A DNA stretch of 32,546 bases from Caldimicrobium sp. Lineage in GTDB: Bacteria; Desulfobacterota; Thermodesulfobacteria; Thermodesulfobacteriales; Thermodesulfobacteriaceae. Below the pieces are notes generated by a model, which did no database searches, was not told the origin of the DNA, and was given only the letters and a program-made list of their open reading frames with translations. Position 1 is the first letter of the stretch. Each line of letters starts with the position of its first letter. A program made the position numbers and the translations under genes. Of the stretch, positions 10,101 to 26,119 are shown one piece after another. The stretch covers positions 1-32,546 of the forward strand of contig JANXDB010000011.1 of NCBI GenBank assembly GCA_025060015.1, read 5' to 3'.

Positions 10101-10787
10101 ATGAGTAAAGAGGCCTTTAATCCCCTTGTGGAGATCAGAAAATACTTTCAATACTTACAAGATCTTGGCTATAGCCTGGTTCCGAACTGTAAAGAATTCT
10201 CCCTAAAAATGGCTAATGGTCTTACCTCCAAAGAAGCTGATCTATTAGACTTTTTTGAGACCCTATCCCTCTGCCAAGATTGTGGGCTTTATCGCACAAG
10301 AAAACAAACGGTCATTGATAAAAACTTTAATCAACAAGACATTATGCTAGTTGGAGAGTATCCTAGCAGAGAGGATGATTTTAACGGATACCCTCTTTCG
10401 GGTTCCATAAGAGAGCACTTACAGAAAATGCTTTTAAGCATAGGTTTGAGAGTAGAAGATTTTTACACATCTCTGGTGGTGAAATGTAAACCACCTTATG
10501 GAAGGTTGCCCGAGGAAGAAGAGATTAGCCTTTGCAAGAGGCATTTATTAAGGGAGATTACTTTACTTAGACCAAAATTGATACTTGCTTTTGGCAATTT
10601 ACCTCCCAGGGCCCTTTTGGGAGAGTCAGAGTCTATTATCACCGTTAGGGGTAAACCCTTTAAATTTAGGGAATCCGTGATAATTTTTACTTATCACCCC
10701 AATTATATGCAAAAAAATCCAGCAGTGAAAAGACTTATTTGGGAAGACCTAAAAACCTTCAAAAAATTATATGAAAGTCTTAAGTAA
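10101..10787 (+). CDS. Uracil-DNA glycosylase superfamily protein, Fe-S family 4/5-like
   Basis: The 228-residue protein has the four cysteines that bind 4Fe-4S in family 4 and 5 enzymes: Cys58-x2-Cys61, Cys129 and Cys145, with the expected 15-residue gap between the last two. Motif A is present as VGEYPSREDDFNG (84-96) and the C-terminal motif as YHPNYMQKNPAVKRLIWEDL (His199). In family 4 the first motif reads GEAPGxxED and a later FxG; here the glycine after Pro is serine and the phenylalanine is leucine, so uracil recognition may differ. The role is probably removal of uracil from DNA, important in thermophiles where cytosine deaminates fast. About 60 residues precede the Fe-S motif, as in family 4 proteins with N-terminal extensions. 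No ribosome site is seen. Its end overlaps the NfeD gene by 17 bases. Confidence 0.8.
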   Translation: MSKEAFNPLVEIRKYFQYLQDLGYSLVPNCKEFSLKMANGLTSKEADLLDFFETLSLCQDCGLYRTRKQTVIDKNFNQQDIMLVGEYPSREDDFNGYPLSGSIREHLQKMLLSIGLRVEDFYTSLVVKCKPPYGRLPEEEEISLCKRHLLREITLLRPKLILAFGNLPPRALLGESESIITVRGKPFKFRESVIIFTYHPNYMQKNPAVKRLIWEDLKTFKKLYESLK

Positions 10788-16255: not shown

Positions 16256-16846
16256 CTAAAGTTCGAAGGTAGAAAGATAGCTATAGATCATCTCATCGTA
16301 TTTACTTGTCAATTCAAAGACCTTCTTTGCAAGTTCAAAACGAGTTTTAAGAGTGGTGTTACCTTGACTCTTTATCTCCTCAAGCACCTTGGGATAATCC
16401 TTGGGGTCAACAACTACGGTGACGTGTTTAAAATTTTTTGCACTAGCTCTTAAAAGAGTAGGGCCACCAATATCGATGTTTTCAATGGCAGTATCCAGAT
16501 CACCTTTTTGAGCAACCACCTTATCAAAGGCGTAGAGATTTACCACCACCATATCTATGGGTTTTATGTTCATATTTTTAATAGTTTCCACATGATCTAC
16601 TTCGTCGCGCTTAAAAAGGATACCTCCATGCACAAAGGGATGTAAGGTTTTAACCCTACCTCCTAATATTTCAGGAAAGCCTGTGAGCTCAGAGATATCA
16701 ACAACTACAATCCCACCCTCCCTGAGGGTCTTTGCTGTGCCTCCGGTGGAGATAATCTCTACTCCGAGACTTGATAGTTCTCTTGCCAAGTCCACAACTC
16801 CTGATTTGTCTGTAACACTGATAAGGGCTCTCTGAATCTTAGTCAT
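16256..16846 (-). CDS. purH: Stand-alone IMP cyclohydrolase (PurH N-terminal domain only)
   Basis: The 196-residue protein is a complete MGS-like domain: [50 protein letters not shown] and [17 protein letters not shown] are all classic PurH cyclohydrolase motifs. It ends at about residue 196, where bifunctional PurH (over 500 residues) would continue into the AICAR formyltransferase domain. The end is a clean stop and the aroD gene follows 17 bases later. It would close the ring of FAICAR to give IMP, with formylation done by a separate enzyme elsewhere, as known in some prokaryotes. The start has a GGGGG ribosome site. The 80-base gap before ahbC may hold its own promoter. Confidence 0.93.
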
Positions 16847-16926: not shown

Positions 16927-18114
16927 CTAGCAAAGGATTCCGATTTCTTCATCGGTAAGAAAACAGGCAGGATCCGGAGCCCAAACATCTCCAGTCACAG
17001 CTTCTGCCCGTACTCTAAAATTTCCCCCACAGATCTCTAAAAACCTACACTGGGCACATCTACCTTTAACATGCCTTTTTTTCTCCTTGAGCTTTGCCAT
17101 CAGGGGATCAGAGGTATCCATCCAGATCTCACTAAAGGGCCTTTTTCTTACATTTCCAAAGCTATAGTGCCGCCAGAATTGATCTGGATGCACCTCACCA
17201 TCCCAGGATACACACCCAATCCCAACTCCTGTGTTATTTCCACCGTTCATGAGAAGCAGCTGATAGACCTCTTCTGCTCGGGGATTGCCCTCTCTCTTCA
17301 TACGAAGATAAAGATAGGGACCGTCGGCATGGTTATCCACGGTTAAAACCTCCACCTTGTGACCTTTATCATGTAGTTCCTTAGTGCGATCTATAATATA
17401 ATCTACCCATTTTCTCGTTTCCTCATGAGATAGATCCTGCTCAACAAGGTTACTTCCTCTGCCTGCATAAACCAAGTGATAGAAACAGATACGCGGAATG
17501 GATATCTCCTCCACAAAATCAAAGACCTTCGGTATTTCCCCTGCATTGAATTTATTTATGGTAAATCTCAAACCCACTTTAATACCTTCTCTTTTGCAGT
17601 TTTCAATAGCTTTTACCACCTTATCAAAACACCCCTTTGATACTCTAAATCTATCATGAACTTCACCAATACCATCAAGACTTATTCCCACATAGGAAAG
17701 GCCAAATTTTTTCAACTCCCTGGCAACAACCTCATCAATCAGAGTTCCATTGGTAGAAAGTACCGCCCTTAATCCAAGGGTTACCGCCTTATTTATCAGA
17801 TCGAATAGATCTGCCCTGACCAAGGGCTCTCCTCCTGAGAATAGTACAACAGGACAACCAAAGTTAGCCAAATCCTCAAGTAGCCTAAAACCCTCTTCAG
17901 TGGTTAATTCATTGCTTGCAGGATTATTATCCGCAGAGGCATAGCAATGAATACATCTTAGGTTGCATGCTCGGGTAACATTCCAAACAACAACAGGTTT
18001 CTTATCAACAGAAAACTGAAGTAAATGGGAGGGAAGATCTTTAGCTCTCCTCCCATACCTTAAGGGATCTGAAGCCTCAACTGTTCCACAGTATAATTTA
18101 GAAATACCTATCAT
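16927..18114 (-). CDS. ahbC: 12,18-didecarboxysiroheme deacetylase AhbC (radical SAM, SPASM)
   Basis: The 395-residue protein opens with MIGISKLYCGTVEASDPLRYG and LPSHLLQFSVDKKPVVVWN, the characteristic AhbC N-terminus. The radical SAM cluster motif is Cys50-x3-Cys54-x2-Cys57, followed by FSGGEPL. The SPASM-type auxiliary region has Cys301, Cys353, Cys356, Cys362 and Cys384 and the family tail EICGGNFRVRAEAVTGD. AhbC removes two acetate side chains of 12,18-didecarboxysiroheme to make Fe-coproporphyrin III in the siroheme-dependent heme pathway of sulfate reducers and archaea. A heme d1 enzyme such as NirJ is the nearest alternative. The heme made this way would supply the multiheme cytochromes encoded here. 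The other ahb genes are not in the window. Confidence 0.9.
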   Translation of the reverse strand: MIGISKLYCGTVEASDPLRYGRRAKDLPSHLLQFSVDKKPVVVWNVTRACNLRCIHCYASADNNPASNELTTEEGFRLLEDLANFGCPVVLFSGGEPLVRADLFDLINKAVTLGLRAVLSTNGTLIDEVVARELKKFGLSYVGISLDGIGEVHDRFRVSKGCFDKVVKAIENCKREGIKVGLRFTINKFNAGEIPKVFDFVEEISIPRICFYHLVYAGRGSNLVEQDLSHEETRKWVDYIIDRTKELHDKGHKVEVLTVDNHADGPYLYLRMKREGNPRAEEVYQLLLMNGGNNTGVGIGCVSWDGEVHPDQFWRHYSFGNVRKRPFSEIWMDTSDPLMAKLKEKKRHVKGRCAQCRFLEICGGNFRVRAEAVTGDVWAPDPACFLTDEEIGILC

Positions 18115-18130
18115 ATAATTACTACCCCCC

Positions 18131-18487
18131 TTATTTCTTAATGTGTTCTTTCATGGCCTTCAGGATCTCCTCCTCTGTAAAAGGATAGTAAACTATGTAA
18201 TCTGCTCCACTATCTCTAGCCTTTATCTCCTCCTCAGGGTAATTACATTTGCAGATAGCTATAATGGGTATATGGGCAGTTTTGGGATTAGATTTAAGCA
18301 GAAGGGTAACGGCAAATCCATCCAGCAAGGGAAGATCCTTTTCTAAAATTATCAGGGAAACCTTTGATCTTTTGGCTCTGTCCAGGAGATCCTCGCCACT
18401 ATCAACTAACTGATACTTGATTTTATGAAAATCAAGTATTTTGCTGAGTTTCTGAAAGATACCCTCCGAAAGGGCAAGCAAGATCAT
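18131..18487 (-). CDS. Stand-alone degenerate receiver-domain protein
   Basis: The 118-residue protein has the CheY-like fold order: VSLIILEKDLPLLDGF (strand 3), IPIIAI (strand 4), GADYIVYYPFTEEEIL (strand 5 and helix 5). The key residues are changed. The phosphoacceptor Asp position (compare LDxxLPxxDG) is Glu49, the N-terminal acidic pair is replaced by Leu/Ser, the conserved Thr/Ser after strand 4 is Cys, and the lysine before PF is Tyr. It therefore should not be phosphorylated, and Glu49 could mimic the phosphorylated state. It follows the ClpX-like gene after one base, which argues for a working pair, and precedes ahbC by 16 bases. Confidence 0.85.
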   Translation of the reverse strand: MILLALSEGIFQKLSKILDFHKIKYQLVDSGEDLLDRAKRSKVSLIILEKDLPLLDGFAVTLLLKSNPKTAHIPIIAICKCNYPEEEIKARDSGADYIVYYPFTEEEILKAMKEHIKK

Positions 18488-18488
18488 T

Positions 18489-20108
18489 TTAGACTCTCAG
18501 GAGTTTTTCTAAAAATCTCTCTTGATCTATGAAAGCCTCTTTTGTTATGTAAAAAGACTTTATTCCTGTATCGCGAAGAAGAGCAAAGGTGTATTCAAAT
18601 CTTGACAATGATTTTTCACAAAAGGAAAAAACACCTTGATCCCTCTTAAGAACCTCTTCCATGATGTAGTCAATAGTCTCCTCGGCAAAAACTACCTGTA
18701 TTTGGTTTCTCCTAGAGAAGGTATTTTCATAGGCCTTTATTTGACGATATAAACCTATCAGTTCCTCTAGAGCGTGAGTTAGCTCTATGTCCTCCCCTTT
18801 GTGGATTTCAAAGAGAAGCTGTGCTCTTTTAGGAGTTATTTCAAGGGGCAATTCCCCTCTTGCCTTACCTCTATCTTCCAAGAAGTGCAGCATTCTCTCC
18901 TTCTCATCAGATAGGGCTTTTTCATAGGCTTTACGATAGGCTTGATCATTAGGTGAGGTAAGTAATCCATGGAGATATCCCTCAGGATCTAGGACTAATT
19001 CTCTGGTTACCCCTATGGTCTTTATAGGATAAGAGGGCAAAGTCCTCTCAAAGGGTGTAAGAACACTTTCTAAAACTCGCGCCAATGCTCTAGCCCCTGT
19101 GCTCTCAAGATAAGCCCTTTTTGCTATCTCTTCTAAGGCTTCGTTAGTAAAGGCTATATCAATATTGTAAACCTTGAAATCTCTTTTTTTGTTTAACATT
19201 ATGACATTATTAGGATTAGCAAGAATTTCAAAGAGTTCTTTTTCCGTAAGCAAATCAAAGACAGCTATAACAGGGAATCTTCCCACAAACTCTCTCTCAA
19301 AGCCATAGGCAACTAAGTCCTCTGGTGTTACGAATTTTAGATAATTTATTTTAAGCTCCTCTCTGCTTTCTATCTCCGATAAAAAGCCAAGTTTTTGCTT
19401 TTTAAGTCTTTTTTTGATGATCTCTTCAAGGCCATTAAAAGCTCCACTAACAACAAAGAGAATATACTTGGTGTTGAGGGTAAGTTTTTTCTTTTTTGGT
19501 CTGCCCTCTTCAGCAGAGTATTCAAGTATTTGAAAGCCATCTTGAGGTGCTTTTATCTCAACCTCTGTCTCTTCAAGAGGCTTTAACAGGGCTCTCTGCA
19601 CCCCAGTCCTTGAAACATCTGGCCCTATGATGTCTCCAGAGGAAGCTATTTTATCTATCTCATCAAGGTAAACTATACCAAAGCGGGCTTTCTCAATCTC
19701 ACCATCTGCCTCCCAGTAGAGATCTCTGATCAAATCCTCCACATCCCCACCTACATAGCCTGTTTCACTAAACTTAGTTGCGTCACCCTTTACAAAGGGA
19801 ACACCTAATTTTTTGGCAATTAATTTGATAGTATAGGTCTTGCCCACTCCAGTTGGTCCTATGATAATGATGTTATTCTTCACAAAGCCCACAGATTCAT
19901 GTCGTGGTTCCTTTGTTAGCAGGGCCTTTGCCTTATGAAAATGGGTACAGATTTTGGTGCTAATGATTCCTTTGGCCTCTCTTTGTCCAATGATATATTC
20001 ATCAAGATAAGATTCAAGATCCGCTGGACGTAGTGAAAAATCTAAAAGAAAGTTACCTTTTTGAGTTAGATTAATTCGCTCTATTTTAGGTTTGCCAGCT
20101 TTTAACAT
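18489..20108 (-). CDS. ClpX-like AAA+ unfoldase without zinc domain, with C-terminal extension
   Basis: The 539-residue AAA+ ATPase follows ClpX closely in its core: LDEYIIGQREAK at the start of the AAA module, Walker A GPTGVGKT (84-91), pore loop GYVG (117-120), Walker B IVYLDEID (145-152), arginine finger in EFVGRFP (Arg277) and sensor-2 TGARAL (Arg340). A tripeptide Leu-Gly-Phe (240-242) lies where ClpX has the IGF loop that docks on ClpP. The N-terminal four-cysteine zinc domain of ClpX is absent. Residues about 365-539 form an extra helical domain absent from ClpX. It is likely an unfoldase that may feed ClpP but takes substrates differently. The start ATG lacks a ribosome site and sits in a tandem repeat. 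The degenerate receiver gene follows after one base. Confidence 0.85.
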   Translation of the reverse strand: MLKAGKPKIERINLTQKGNFLLDFSLRPADLESYLDEYIIGQREAKGIISTKICTHFHKAKALLTKEPRHESVGFVKNNIIIIGPTGVGKTYTIKLIAKKLGVPFVKGDATKFSETGYVGGDVEDLIRDLYWEADGEIEKARFGIVYLDEIDKIASSGDIIGPDVSRTGVQRALLKPLEETEVEIKAPQDGFQILEYSAEEGRPKKKKLTLNTKYILFVVSGAFNGLEEIIKKRLKKQKLGFLSEIESREELKINYLKFVTPEDLVAYGFEREFVGRFPVIAVFDLLTEKELFEILANPNNVIMLNKKRDFKVYNIDIAFTNEALEEIAKRAYLESTGARALARVLESVLTPFERTLPSYPIKTIGVTRELVLDPEGYLHGLLTSPNDQAYRKAYEKALSDEKERMLHFLEDRGKARGELPLEITPKRAQLLFEIHKGEDIELTHALEELIGLYRQIKAYENTFSRRNQIQVVFAEETIDYIMEEVLKRDQGVFSFCEKSLSRFEYTFALLRDTGIKSFYITKEAFIDQERFLEKLLRV

Positions 20109-22534: not shown

Positions 22535-23410
22535 CTAAAGTAGTTTAGAACAAAAGTTTCTCAAAACTTCCCTTAGGGAGCTATCCTTCATGGCATAATG
22601 CAGAGTTGCTTCAAAAAAGCCTTTTAGATTTCCGGTATCAAGCCTCTTCCCTTGGAAGATGTAGCCATATACAGGATATCCATCATCAATCATGGCCTGA
22701 ATAGCGTCGGTGAGTTGGTATTCTCCAGAGATCTTGGGAATTTTTTTAAGAAAATCGAATATCACTGGCTCAAAGAGGTATCTGCCGATGATGGAAAGGT
22801 TTGAAGGAGCCTCCTCTAAAGGAGGTTTTTCAACTACCCTCTTTATTAGAATTAAGTCATCTTCTATTTTTTCTCCCTCAATTATGCCGTACTTGGAAAC
22901 ATCTTCCCAGGCTACTTCCTCTAGGGCTATGACACTATGTCCTTGAGTTTTAGCACTGAGGACTGTATAAGTCTCTGTCATCTGCTTTAAACATGGCACG
23001 TCACTGTCAACAAGATCATCTCCTAATACAACTGCAAAGGGTTCATTTCCAACAAGTCTCTCAGCCATTAAAACCGCATGACCCAGCCCCTGAGGGATCT
23101 TCTGTCTAATAGAACTCAAGTATCTGATCTTATCTTCTACCTCCTCTATTAAACTTAATAGGACTTCTTTTTTGCGATCCCTGAGAAAACTCTTGAGTCC
23201 CAAATCTACGTCAAAGTAGTCAAGAATAGCCTCTTTTCCGTAGGAGATAACGAAAATTAGACTATCAAAACCTGAATCAATAATCTCATCCACCACATAT
23301 TCAATTACTGGCCGGTTAAGAAGTGGCAATAGTTCTTTGGGAATTACCTTGGTAACAGGAAGCATCCGGGTGCCCAAGCCTGCAACTGGTAAAACTGCCT
23401 TTCTTATCAT
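22535..23410 (-). CDS. galU: UTP-glucose-1-phosphate uridylyltransferase
   Basis: The 291-residue nucleotidyltransferase has the start signature KAVLPVAGLGTRMLPVTKVIPKELLPL (glycine-rich nucleotide site), PQGLGHAV, and AVVLGDD (metal-binding Asp pair), and a C-terminal GEYQLTDAI and Y-x-G-KRLDTGN, as in GalU. It makes UDP-glucose from UTP and glucose 1-phosphate for polysaccharide and glycolipid synthesis. Usual GalU has ARG-rich TRFLP; here TRMLP, as in thermophiles. The start overlaps the upstream 151-residue gene as ATGA. Confidence 0.92.
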   Translation of the reverse strand: MIRKAVLPVAGLGTRMLPVTKVIPKELLPLLNRPVIEYVVDEIIDSGFDSLIFVISYGKEAILDYFDVDLGLKSFLRDRKKEVLLSLIEEVEDKIRYLSSIRQKIPQGLGHAVLMAERLVGNEPFAVVLGDDLVDSDVPCLKQMTETYTVLSAKTQGHSVIALEEVAWEDVSKYGIIEGEKIEDDLILIKRVVEKPPLEEAPSNLSIIGRYLFEPVIFDFLKKIPKISGEYQLTDAIQAMIDDGYPVYGYIFQGKRLDTGNLKGFFEATLHYAMKDSSLREVLRNFCSKLL

Positions 23411-23862
23411 AAAATAACCTCCATAACTTTTTGATAAACACTATTAAAACCTCTATACAGCCTTTCCCAATAGCTCCTACACCTAAGATAAATTCGTTCA
23501 AGTTCCATCATATCTGCGGGATTAAGCACAAGATTTACCGAGTAAAGGAAGGCCTCTTTTGGATCAAGGGAGGTAACTCCAATGGATACTAACAAAAGGA
23601 GAATCTTTCTTCTCTTCTCAAGAGGTATGGCTTCTATGTGTGGGCTTATTTTCTTAATGGTTTTAGGATCCTCAAGACCTATGATTATATTATGAACATC
23701 AGTGGCAGTGATCCAGGATGATATTTCCTCCGGTGTAGAAATAAGCCTAAATTCCGTTTCTCTTTCAAAGTAATCCTTCAAAGCTTGCCAATTTTCCCCT
23801 AATTTCCAATAACAAAGGGTAACTGGCTTTTCAATGAGCAGATCCTTTAAGTCTATGGTCAT
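23407..23862 (-). CDS. Unknown 151-residue protein, receiver-like topology, coupled to pilT paralogue
   Basis: I do not recognise a named family. No signal peptide or membrane helix is seen. The predicted order of strands and helices is receiver-like: VTLCYW, a helix NWQALKDYFERET, strand FRLIST, strand HNIIIGLED, strand KILLLLVS, then DPKEAFLYSVNLVLNPADMMELERI, reminiscent of the strand 5-helix 5 end of a response regulator. The usual phosphorylation Asp, Thr and Lys are not obvious. It overlaps the upstream pilT paralogue and the downstream galU each by four bases, so all three are translationally coupled. It may be a regulator of the pilus retraction ATPases, by inference from context only. 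Confidence 0.7.
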   Translation of the reverse strand: MTIDLKDLLIEKPVTLCYWKLGENWQALKDYFERETEFRLISTPEEISSWITATDVHNIIIGLEDPKTIKKISPHIEAIPLEKRRKILLLLVSIGVTSLDPKEAFLYSVNLVLNPADMMELERIYLRCRSYWERLYRGFNSVYQKVMEVIL

Positions 23863-25022
23863 TTAACTCCCTTTCCCTCAATTTCTAGTTTATCAATGGA
23901 AATCTCTACTCCCTTTTGTTTCTTAATTAATTCAATTTGTCTTGCTACTATGTCTTTTCTTAAGGCGTGGTAATAGGCAGTTTCTTCATCTATAAGGCCC
24001 TTTTTAAACACCTCTATGAGATTTTGATCAAAGGTCTGCATTCCGAAGGGGGTCCCCTGAGTCATTACATCATAAAAGGTTTTACCTTCTGACTCCCCTG
24101 TGAGTATAATTTCTCTTGTGCGGATATTGTTGTAAAGAATATCAAATACTGCTATCCTGCCTCCATCAACTTTTGGTAGGAGCTTTTGTCCCACAATCCA
24201 CTTTAGGGCAGAGGCTAATCTTTGTCTAATTTGGCTTTCTTCTTCTTTACTATAAAAGCCAATAATTCTATTTATAGTTTGGCCAGCTCCGATGGTGTGC
24301 AGGGTTGAAAAGACGAGATGACCTGTTTCAGCAGCAGTCAAGGCTATATCCATGGTTTCTCTATCCCGAATCTCTCCTACCAAAATGACATGAGGTGCCT
24401 GCCTAAGGGCTGCTCTTAGTCCCTCCGCAAAGCCTGAAAAGTCTGTTCCCAGCTCCCTCTGATTTATTGTTGCCTCTATTGGAGTGTGTATGTATTCTAC
24501 AGGATCCTCTAAGGTAAGAATGTGCACTGGGTCACTCTTGTTAATCTCGTGGAGAAGTGCTGCTAAAGTGGTAGTCTTCCCTTGGCCTGTTGCTCCGGTA
24601 ACAAAAATGATACCAAATTTTTCCTTAGCTATTCTGTAAAAAACTTGAGGCAAACCAAGTTCTTCAATACTCTTGATCTTACCAGAGAGTTTCCTCATAA
24701 TTATGTTGTAAGCTCTTTGACGAGAAAAGATATTCACTCTAAAACGCGTTTGATCATCAAGATAGTAGGATAAATCTGCATAACCATCTTTAAAGAGTTT
24801 ATGATAAAGGTATGCTTTATCGCTCAGCAAGAGAAGGGCTATTTGCTCGACCTGAAAGGGTGTCAAGCGGTCAATGGGATAATCTGGAAGATATACTGAC
24901 TTGACTTTTCCATAAACAAGAAGTTGAAAGGGATAACCTGAAAGGATAAAGATGTCTGATATTCCGGGTTCGTAATTAGCAAGTTTACTTATCAGATCTC
25001 TTAACTCTAACTCCGTAAGCAC
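23859..25022 (-). CDS. PilT/PilU-like type IV pilus retraction ATPase, second copy
   Basis: The 387-residue secretion ATPase has an N-terminal PAS-like domain (about 1-120) and a RecA-like core with Walker A GATGQGKT (143-150), Asp box ILTLEDPVEYIH, Walker B HVILVGEIRD and His box TGHLVFSTLHT. The Walker A has Ala and Gln where PilT has Pro and Ser, and a C-terminal tail of about 40 residues extends past the usual end. Such second copies, named PilU, assist PilT in pilus retraction. It starts five bases after pilT. Function as PilU is inferred from position and divergence. No conserved AIRNLIRE-like tail is as clear as in PilT. Confidence 0.9.
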   Translation of the reverse strand: MLTELELRDLISKLANYEPGISDIFILSGYPFQLLVYGKVKSVYLPDYPIDRLTPFQVEQIALLLLSDKAYLYHKLFKDGYADLSYYLDDQTRFRVNIFSRQRAYNIIMRKLSGKIKSIEELGLPQVFYRIAKEKFGIIFVTGATGQGKTTTLAALLHEINKSDPVHILTLEDPVEYIHTPIEATINQRELGTDFSGFAEGLRAALRQAPHVILVGEIRDRETMDIALTAAETGHLVFSTLHTIGAGQTINRIIGFYSKEEESQIRQRLASALKWIVGQKLLPKVDGGRIAVFDILYNNIRTREIILTGESEGKTFYDVMTQGTPFGMQTFDQNLIEVFKKGLIDEETAYYHALRKDIVARQIELIKKQKGVEISIDKLEIEGKGVK

Positions 25023-25027
25023 ACCTT

Positions 25028-26119
25028 TTAGCCTGGCAACTCTGTAAAATCTATGACTTCCCTATTCTGAATAAAGGGTAAAAATCTGGTTTTATCTATT
25101 GCCTTTATGAAGGCTTCCTCTGGGCTTATTATACCCTTTCTCAAATAATCTATAATACAATCATCTAAACTCATCATGCCAAATTTTTTACCAGTCTGAA
25201 TCATTGAGGGAATTTGATGGATCTTGCCTTCACGGATGAGATTTCTGACTGCAGGCGTAGCAATTAAAATTTCTGTAGCTACAACTCTACCAGGCCTATC
25301 TATTCTTTTAAACATAGTTTGGGATATGACCCCTCTCAGAGCCTCAGACAAAGTAGTTCTTATTTGGGCCTGCTCATCAGCTGGAAAGACATCAATGATT
25401 CGATTAATCGTTTGGGCAGCCGAAATGGTATGAAGCGTAGATAGAACTAAATGACCAGTAAGGGTAGCTTCTATTGCCAAGGCTATAGTTTCTCTATCTC
25501 TCATTTCGCCTACTAAAATTATGTCAGGATCTTCTCGCAAAGCTGCTCGAAGGGCATTAGCAAAGGATTTAGTGTGGGTGCCAAGTTCTCTTTGATTAAC
25601 CAGGCAATTTCGCGGTTCATGGACAAACTCTATGGGATCCTCGATGGTTATAATATGGTCATAGCGCATTCTATTTGCATAATCTATAATTGCAGCCAGA
25701 GTTGTTGACTTCCCTGATCCCGTAGGACCAGTCACAAGCACTAATCCCTTTGGTAAAAGGGCCAGTTTATTTAAGATGGGTGGCAGACCAAGCTCTTCAA
25801 TCGTCTTGACTTTAGTAGGTATGACCCTAAAAGCTGCTGCTATTCCTTTTCTTTCTTTATAATAATTGACTCTGAAACGAGCTAAATCAGGGACTTCTAA
25901 TCCAAAATCAACCTCTCCTTCTTCTTCAAATCTTTTAATAATCTCCTCAGGTGCAACCTCATAAAGCATTTCTCTTAGCTCCTCTTCCTCCAAGATCTTA
26001 TACTTTACTCTCTGCAAATCACCATGGAGCCTAATCAGAGGAGGGTTACCAACCGACAAGTGAAGATCGGATGCACCTGTCTCCACGATTAGTTTGAAAA
26101 AGGGGTCTAACTTAGCCAT
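25028..26119 (-). CDS. pilT: Type IV pilus retraction ATPase PilT
   Basis: The 363-residue protein has ASDLHLSVG near the N-terminus, Walker A GPTGSGKST (131-139), Asp box ITIEDPIEFVH, Walker B PDIILVGEMRD, His box TGHLVLSTLHT, and the C-terminal PAVRNLIREGKIHQIPSMIQTG motif that is diagnostic for PilT. It powers pilus retraction (twitching, DNA uptake, adhesion) at the inner face of the membrane. It is the first gene of an operon running pilT-pilT paralogue-unknown-galU-priA. Pilus assembly genes (pilB, pilC, pilin) are not in the window. Confidence 0.94.
   Translation of the reverse strand: MAKLDPFFKLIVETGASDLHLSVGNPPLIRLHGDLQRVKYKILEEEELREMLYEVAPEEIIKRFEEEGEVDFGLEVPDLARFRVNYYKERKGIAAAFRVIPTKVKTIEELGLPPILNKLALLPKGLVLVTGPTGSGKSTTLAAIIDYANRMRYDHIITIEDPIEFVHEPRNCLVNQRELGTHTKSFANALRAALREDPDIILVGEMRDRETIALAIEATLTGHLVLSTLHTISAAQTINRIIDVFPADEQAQIRTTLSEALRGVISQTMFKRIDRPGRVVATEILIATPAVRNLIREGKIHQIPSMIQTGKKFGMMSLDDCIIDYLRKGIISPEEAFIKAIDKTRFLPFIQNREVIDFTELPG

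Follow-up and report, generated by a model that had tools for sequence, protein, structure and literature searches.

The ClpX-like protein and its motor domain

The window, by which we mean the whole stretch of DNA that was analysed, is Caldimicrobium sp. contig JANXDB010000011.1 (32,546 nucleotides; GenBank assembly GCA_025060015.1). The genes and features discussed here are the following, with residue numbers referring to the encoded proteins.

18489 to 20108, minus strand: ClpX-like AAA+ unfoldase paralog, without a zinc domain and extended at the C-terminus (open reading frame, 539 amino acids)
19836 to 19859, minus strand: Walker A, GPTGVGKT, residues 84-91, identical in 91/93 homologues
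19749 to 19760, minus strand: pore-1 loop, GYVG, residues 117-120, in 93/93 homologues
19650 to 19673, minus strand: Walker B, VYLDEIDK, residues 146-153, every listed variant being DE[IV]DK
19383 to 19391, minus strand: ClpP-docking tripeptide, LGF, residues 240-242, [ILMV]GF in 93/93 homologues
19089 to 19100, minus strand: sensor 2, TGAR, residues 337-340, in 92/93 homologues
18492 to 18983, minus strand: C-terminal extension, residues 376-539, a helical stalk and an extra domain absent from canonical ClpX (profile end, AlphaFold2)
18519 to 18716, minus strand: degenerate second copy of the AAA+ small domain, residues about 465-530 (hhalign, Foldseek)
18131 to 18487, minus strand: single-domain pseudo-receiver, 118 amino acids (Pfam Response_reg, 2.6e-11)
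18341 to 18343, minus strand: codon of Glu49, at the phospho-Asp position, Glu in 30/38 pseudo-receivers
16927 to 18114, minus strand: AhbC, 12,18-didecarboxysiroheme deacetylase (TIGR04546, 705.1 bits against a cut-off of 650)

The AAA+ protein aligns with ClpX only over residues 26-374, the NCBIfam ClpX profiles ending at residue 374, and it scores below the cut-offs of both NCBIfam ClpX equivalogs (PRK05342/TIGR00382; 312.5 bits against a cut-off of 359 and 287.3 against 370.75), as does its homologue L092 (320.4/299.4 bits). Its closest PDB relatives are nevertheless ClpX (E 2.9e-69), and the top Foldseek matches of its AlphaFold2 model (mean pLDDT 81.5) are ClpX chains from ClpX-ClpP complexes (probability 1.00). 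The initial annotation had described an AAA+ core that keeps all ClpX motor motifs, including the GYVG pore loop and the LGF tripeptide, and this is borne out: all were found and are conserved over 93 homologues, together with the box VII GR and an SGAF motif that is invariant across the 93 sequences. The same genome carries, on another contig, a separate canonical ClpX adjoining ClpP, as well as HslU, and contains one full-length ClpP plus one weak match at 25.5 bits. The window protein therefore shares with housekeeping ClpX (ClpXP) the AAA+ core, the GYVG pore loop, the IGF/LGF loop, sensor 2 and the match to the ClpX fold of ClpX-ClpP complexes, but differs from it in that it lacks the zinc domain, has a basic KTKREK/RPKKKK stretch in place of the RKH motif, carries a C-terminal addition of 164 residues with a second small domain, belongs to a separate deep clade, scores below both equivalog cut-offs and does not adjoin clpP. 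Taken together, these sequence comparisons identify it as a deep ClpX paralog that is distinct from housekeeping ClpX.

A missing zinc domain and a duplicated small domain

Neither the window protein nor any homologue N-terminus inspected has the N-terminal C4 zinc-binding domain, whereas nearly all canonical ClpX proteins retrieved from the same phylum carry it. As had been noted initially, the domain is gone: the genome's canonical ClpX has its zinc-domain cysteines (CSFCGK...CNECVELC), and the paralog has no counterpart to them. In most homologues (for example L083, L092 and L119) a conserved N-terminal motif, PDQKELEKELSEYLSKKYG(D/N)(R/K)(V/I)K, stands in the place of the zinc domain; the motif is missing from the window's own family. 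The absence of the domain has a precedent in ClpX3 of Myxococcus xanthus (MXAN_2743), which is reported to be a ClpX paralog without the N-terminal domain, alongside a full ClpX1 (PMC11423568). The two are compared by description only and may or may not be related, and in contrast to the gene neighbourhoods described below, heme goes unmentioned in PMC11423568.

At the other end of the protein, a helical extension of about 175 residues had been proposed. The non-standard C-terminus stands, but the extension comprises 164 amino acids. It is predicted confidently by AlphaFold2, both within the full model and alone, as a long helical stalk followed by a helix-strand-helix-helix-strand-helix arrangement. 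When the last 100 residues were aligned by hhalign with the family's own AAA+ small domain, the two matched over 63 columns (probability 96.3, E 1.7e-9). When the extension alone was used as a Foldseek query, ClpX small domains ranked first, at E values of only 0.01-0.2 and, in many matches, with an rmsd of 2.5-2.8 over about 75 columns. These matches lead us to conclude that the extension ends in a second, degenerate ClpX small domain in tandem with the first, in which the sensor-2 arginine has been lost. The possibility that the extension is simply a normal ClpX end, against which the initial annotation had wished its reading to be checked, is ruled out by this second small domain and by the point at which the ClpX profiles stop.

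A clade of ClpX-like proteins across Thermodesulfobacteriota

A scan of the genome collection with exact peptide patterns returned close relatives only. A sensitive profile search, with the phylum Thermodesulfobacteriota (296 genomes) as its scope, detected full-length ClpX-like relatives in 141/296 genomes. All of them scored E 1e-177 or better and no further match appeared under the limit of 1e-110; with a single-sequence query, canonical ClpX scores about 1e-60 to 1e-73. In a phylogenetic tree the ClpX-like family formed one clade apart from canonical ClpX, on a long stem and with support of 100/100. One further divergent ClpX-like protein, encoded by a 562-amino-acid open frame (L162; G045:C444:46504-48555), falls outside the canonical and the paralog clades alike, on a very long branch.

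The paralog is encoded beside heme biosynthesis genes

AhbC is a radical SAM enzyme of the siroheme-dependent heme pathway, and its gene lies 16 bases downstream of the receiver gene in the window. To place this arrangement in context we counted neighbours in 45 families, one locus per family, further to the two families f1 and f3 of the window's order. With the receiver skipped, the next gene downstream of the ClpX paralog was ahbC in 21 families, hemB in 11 and dnaJ in 10, leaving 3 families with none of the three; heme genes were thus the downstream neighbours in 32/45 families, while upstream, as a control, the most frequent neighbour recurred in only 4/42. The gene order in many loci is clpX-like, ahbC, hemB, ahbD, ahbA, and for one such operon (L092) each product scored over its NCBIfam cut-off. 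In families that lack AhbC and carry HemE, of the uroporphyrinogen-decarboxylase route, the ClpX-like gene is still found beside hemB, and the association therefore survives a change of pathway. The initial annotation had read the function of the protein without this heme link, which we regard as the strongest functional clue.

Several observations bear on how far the neighbourhoods can be pressed. The ClpX-like gene and AhbC co-occur above chance (both in 97 genomes, ClpX-like alone in 44, AhbC alone in 61, neither in 94; p 4.6e-7, a value without phylogenetic correction), but given the genomes with only one of the two, the paralog is not obligatory for either pathway. About six context changes were found on the ClpX-like tree; the neighbourhoods are largely vertically inherited, and the families are therefore not independent events. 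In the window's own family the ClpX-like gene lies within a long mixed gene string (pilT, galU, priA, purH and aro genes), which makes the operon argument weaker there. The dnaJ context is restricted to one well-supported clade of 10 families, without heme genes adjoining. In three of these families a LonB-like protease gene comes next. Loci such as L120:3818-10045, L086 and L129 thus encode, after the ClpX paralog, first a DnaJ-family protein (with a J domain and DnaJ_C) and then a LonB/LonC-like protease, making up a proteostasis cluster of another kind.

Our preferred reading, to which we assign a probability of roughly 0.5, is that the paralog is a second ClpX-type unfoldase, probably a partner of ClpP, that would be dedicated to tetrapyrrole/heme synthesis, and that the pseudo-receiver is a lineage-specific accessory to it. 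The best-surviving alternative, which we nonetheless hold to be unlikely, is a paralog for general quality control, that is, a stress or heat-shock variant of ClpX with broad clients, for which the proximity of heme genes and dnaJ would reflect shared ancestry or co-regulation and the receiver would be a lineage-specific regulator. Such a role would be in keeping with the DnaJ-family neighbour of the 10-family clade, with the LonB-like protease gene that follows it in three families and with the loose co-occurrence of AhbC and the paralog. It fits poorly with heme genes being kept downstream in most families, also after the heme-pathway switch, while upstream neighbours were not kept.

The pseudo-receiver as a probable lineage-specific accessory

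The ClpX-like and receiver open reading frames, both on the minus strand, are separated by one base (18488). The initial annotation had described the downstream product as a CheY-fold protein with Glu at the phospho-Asp position and with the acidic pair, the Thr and the Lys lost. The Pfam match (Response_reg, PF00072; 44.1 bits against a gathering cut-off of 30.2) and the active-site residues agree with this description: the acidic pair is replaced by Leu-Ser, Thr/Ser by Cys79 and Lys by Tyr101. Among 38 homologues the phospho-site is Glu in 30, Arg in 5 and Ser, Tyr or Lys in 1 each, with Asp in 0, and position 79 is Cys in 35/38. In families f1 and f3 the receiver lies directly downstream of the ClpX-like gene in 30/30 loci, the two genes being either narrowly spaced or overlapping by 4 bases, and the dN/dS of the receiver is about 0.02-0.12 in six unsaturated pairs, indicating purifying selection. 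This constant gene order and the low dN/dS argue that the pair does not consist of chance open reading frames, and the adjacency, on which the proposed pairing had been made to depend, is conserved.

Adjacency within these two families does not, however, make the receiver a core partner. It was found in 8/45 other families (one locus per family sampled), or 10/47 overall, and is therefore accessory; of the unfoldase-receiver pair proposed initially, the adjacency holds and the core-partner role does not. On the tree, the receiver-bearing ClpX-like genes form two groups. A single clade of such genes is weakly rejected (p-AU 0.027), and consequently one gain with losses and two gains are both possible. 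We saw no fusion of the ClpX-like and receiver genes among the loci read. Nor did we find a receiver-specific signature in the ATPase that would point to a docking site: the only residues that separate proteins with a receiver from those without are 178, 341 and 460, and this difference is confounded by phylogeny.

The initial annotation had taken the receiver for a 'constitutively on' adaptor, with RssB as the model. The loss of phosphorylation on which this idea drew is upheld by the 38 homologues. Glu at the phospho-site, however, is confined to the order, the other families with a receiver having Arg, Ser, Tyr or Lys instead, so that a phosphomimic state of Glu is not the conserved property and is ruled out as such for the wider family. 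From its residues and its conservation, we judge the protein to be a pseudo-receiver under selection whose conserved property is the loss of phosphorylation, the Glu being a feature of the order only. CpdR is a single-domain receiver that binds the N-domain of ClpX. Like CpdR and RssB, the pseudo-receiver is a receiver-fold protein associated with a ClpX-type motor, here by gene order; CpdR is active when unphosphorylated, and the D58E variant of RssB mimics phosphorylation. In contrast to both, it lacks a phosphorylatable Asp and is encoded directly beside its motor. For docking on the ClpX zinc domain RssB uses its C-terminal effector domain rather than its receiver, and deletion of the zinc domain abolishes RssB delivery (PMC7226468). 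The pseudo-receiver has no effector domain and its presumed partner motor no zinc domain, so the RssB route cannot apply here as such, and the analogy is not borne out mechanistically. By analogy, CpdR, which primes ClpXP when unphosphorylated (PMC8865702), is nearer than RssB.

These results also bear on the view that what defines the unfoldase is an always-active receiver adaptor of the RssB or CpdR kind, in which Glu would permanently mimic phosphorylation. We consider it improbable: most families lack a receiver altogether, Glu gives way to other residues in several of those that have one, and the domain on which RssB docks is missing. It gains some credit from the conserved adjacency and purifying selection within the order, from RssB D58E, which mimics the phosphorylated state and binds at about 75% of the level of RssB~P (PMC7226468), and from the priming of ClpXP by unphosphorylated CpdR.

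A possible mechanism and its candidate targets

If the paralog is indeed dedicated to heme synthesis, we envisage that it would form a hexameric ring and draw one heme-pathway enzyme or several through its pore, and that the threaded enzymes would either be remodelled or be fed to the shared ClpP, thereby setting the flux of the pathway. The extra C-terminal domain, with the N-terminal motif in most lineages, could replace the zinc domain as a platform for substrates and partners. In Thermodesulfobacteriales and several further families, the pseudo-receiver, whose gene follows almost without a gap, could act as a phosphorylation-independent docking or specificity subunit. A related proposal, that the ring is a ClpP-independent remodeller which inserts or removes cofactors (iron-sulfur clusters or tetrapyrrole) in heme-pathway enzymes, with the duplicate small domain blocking or replacing ClpP docking, is the least probable of those considered, since the [ILMV]GF loop kept in every sequence is hard to explain without ClpP, even though mitochondrial ClpX works on ALA synthase (ALAS) by limited unfolding (PMC7077987) and the extra domain, lying directly after the small domain, might affect access of ClpP.

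A heme-linked role of a ClpX-type unfoldase gains plausibility from mitochondria, where ClpX activates ALAS by partial unfolding (PMC7077987) and CLPX controls ALAS turnover, with PPOX activity and FECH levels depending on CLPX (PMC8361296). What is shared with the paralog is a ClpX-type unfoldase tied to heme biosynthesis; in the paralog, by contrast, the tie is one of gene neighbourhood only. ALAS, the target that the mitochondrial analogy would suggest, is ruled out, as 0/24 genomes tested had an ALA synthase over the curated cut-off, and the target must therefore be another enzyme. Candidates are HemB, AhbC and glutamyl-tRNA reductase, the last of which was found in 23/24 genomes tested. 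In plants, heme is reported to exert feedback on the first committed enzyme through a GluTR-binding protein, with involvement of the Clp protease (PMC6597238); that control of glutamyl-tRNA reductase was shown in plants and employs a different Clp ATPase and a different adaptor.

More tentatively, and with somewhat less confidence than in the preferred reading itself, we suggest that the protein is a ClpX paralog devoted to heme throughout the phylum, whose small domain is duplicated, whose heme-pathway target is an enzyme other than ALAS and which in some lineages receives substrate through a co-encoded pseudo-receiver, and that it would be an independently arisen bacterial counterpart of heme control by mitochondrial ClpX. 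It is already known that ClpX controls heme synthesis in mitochondria and that, in plants, glutamyl-tRNA reductase is under Clp control. In the open-licence literature we found no paper linking ClpX with AhbC, or ClpX with siroheme in Desulfovibrio, although a prior description in subscription papers is possible. If true, a phylum-wide ClpX paralog of heme operons makes testable the repeated evolution of dedicated AAA+ control of tetrapyrrole synthesis, and also which enzyme of the siroheme-dependent pathway is the target. The paralog further represents a natural experiment in how a ClpX motor recruits substrates without its zinc domain, through its duplicated small domain and a receiver no longer signalling by phosphorylation. 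Relative to the initial annotation, the second small domain, the phylum-level clade, the distribution of the receiver and the heme-gene neighbours are new.

Other genes in the window

Some further genes of the window were characterized. A 196-amino-acid protein (16256 to 16846, minus strand) corresponds to the IMP cyclohydrolase part of PurH only (about residues 3-195 of 510) and scores below the PurH cut-off; since this short form of about 196 amino acids recurs in related loci, PurH appears to be split in the lineage. At 23407 to 26119, on the minus strand, two tandem PilT-family ATPases of 387 and 363 amino acids, both over the TIGR01420 cut-off, are followed by a 151-amino-acid protein without a Pfam or NCBIfam match, and the trio recurs in related loci. 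A family-4 uracil-DNA glycosylase is encoded at 10101 to 10787 on the plus strand (TIGR00758, 134.5 bits, over the cut-off).
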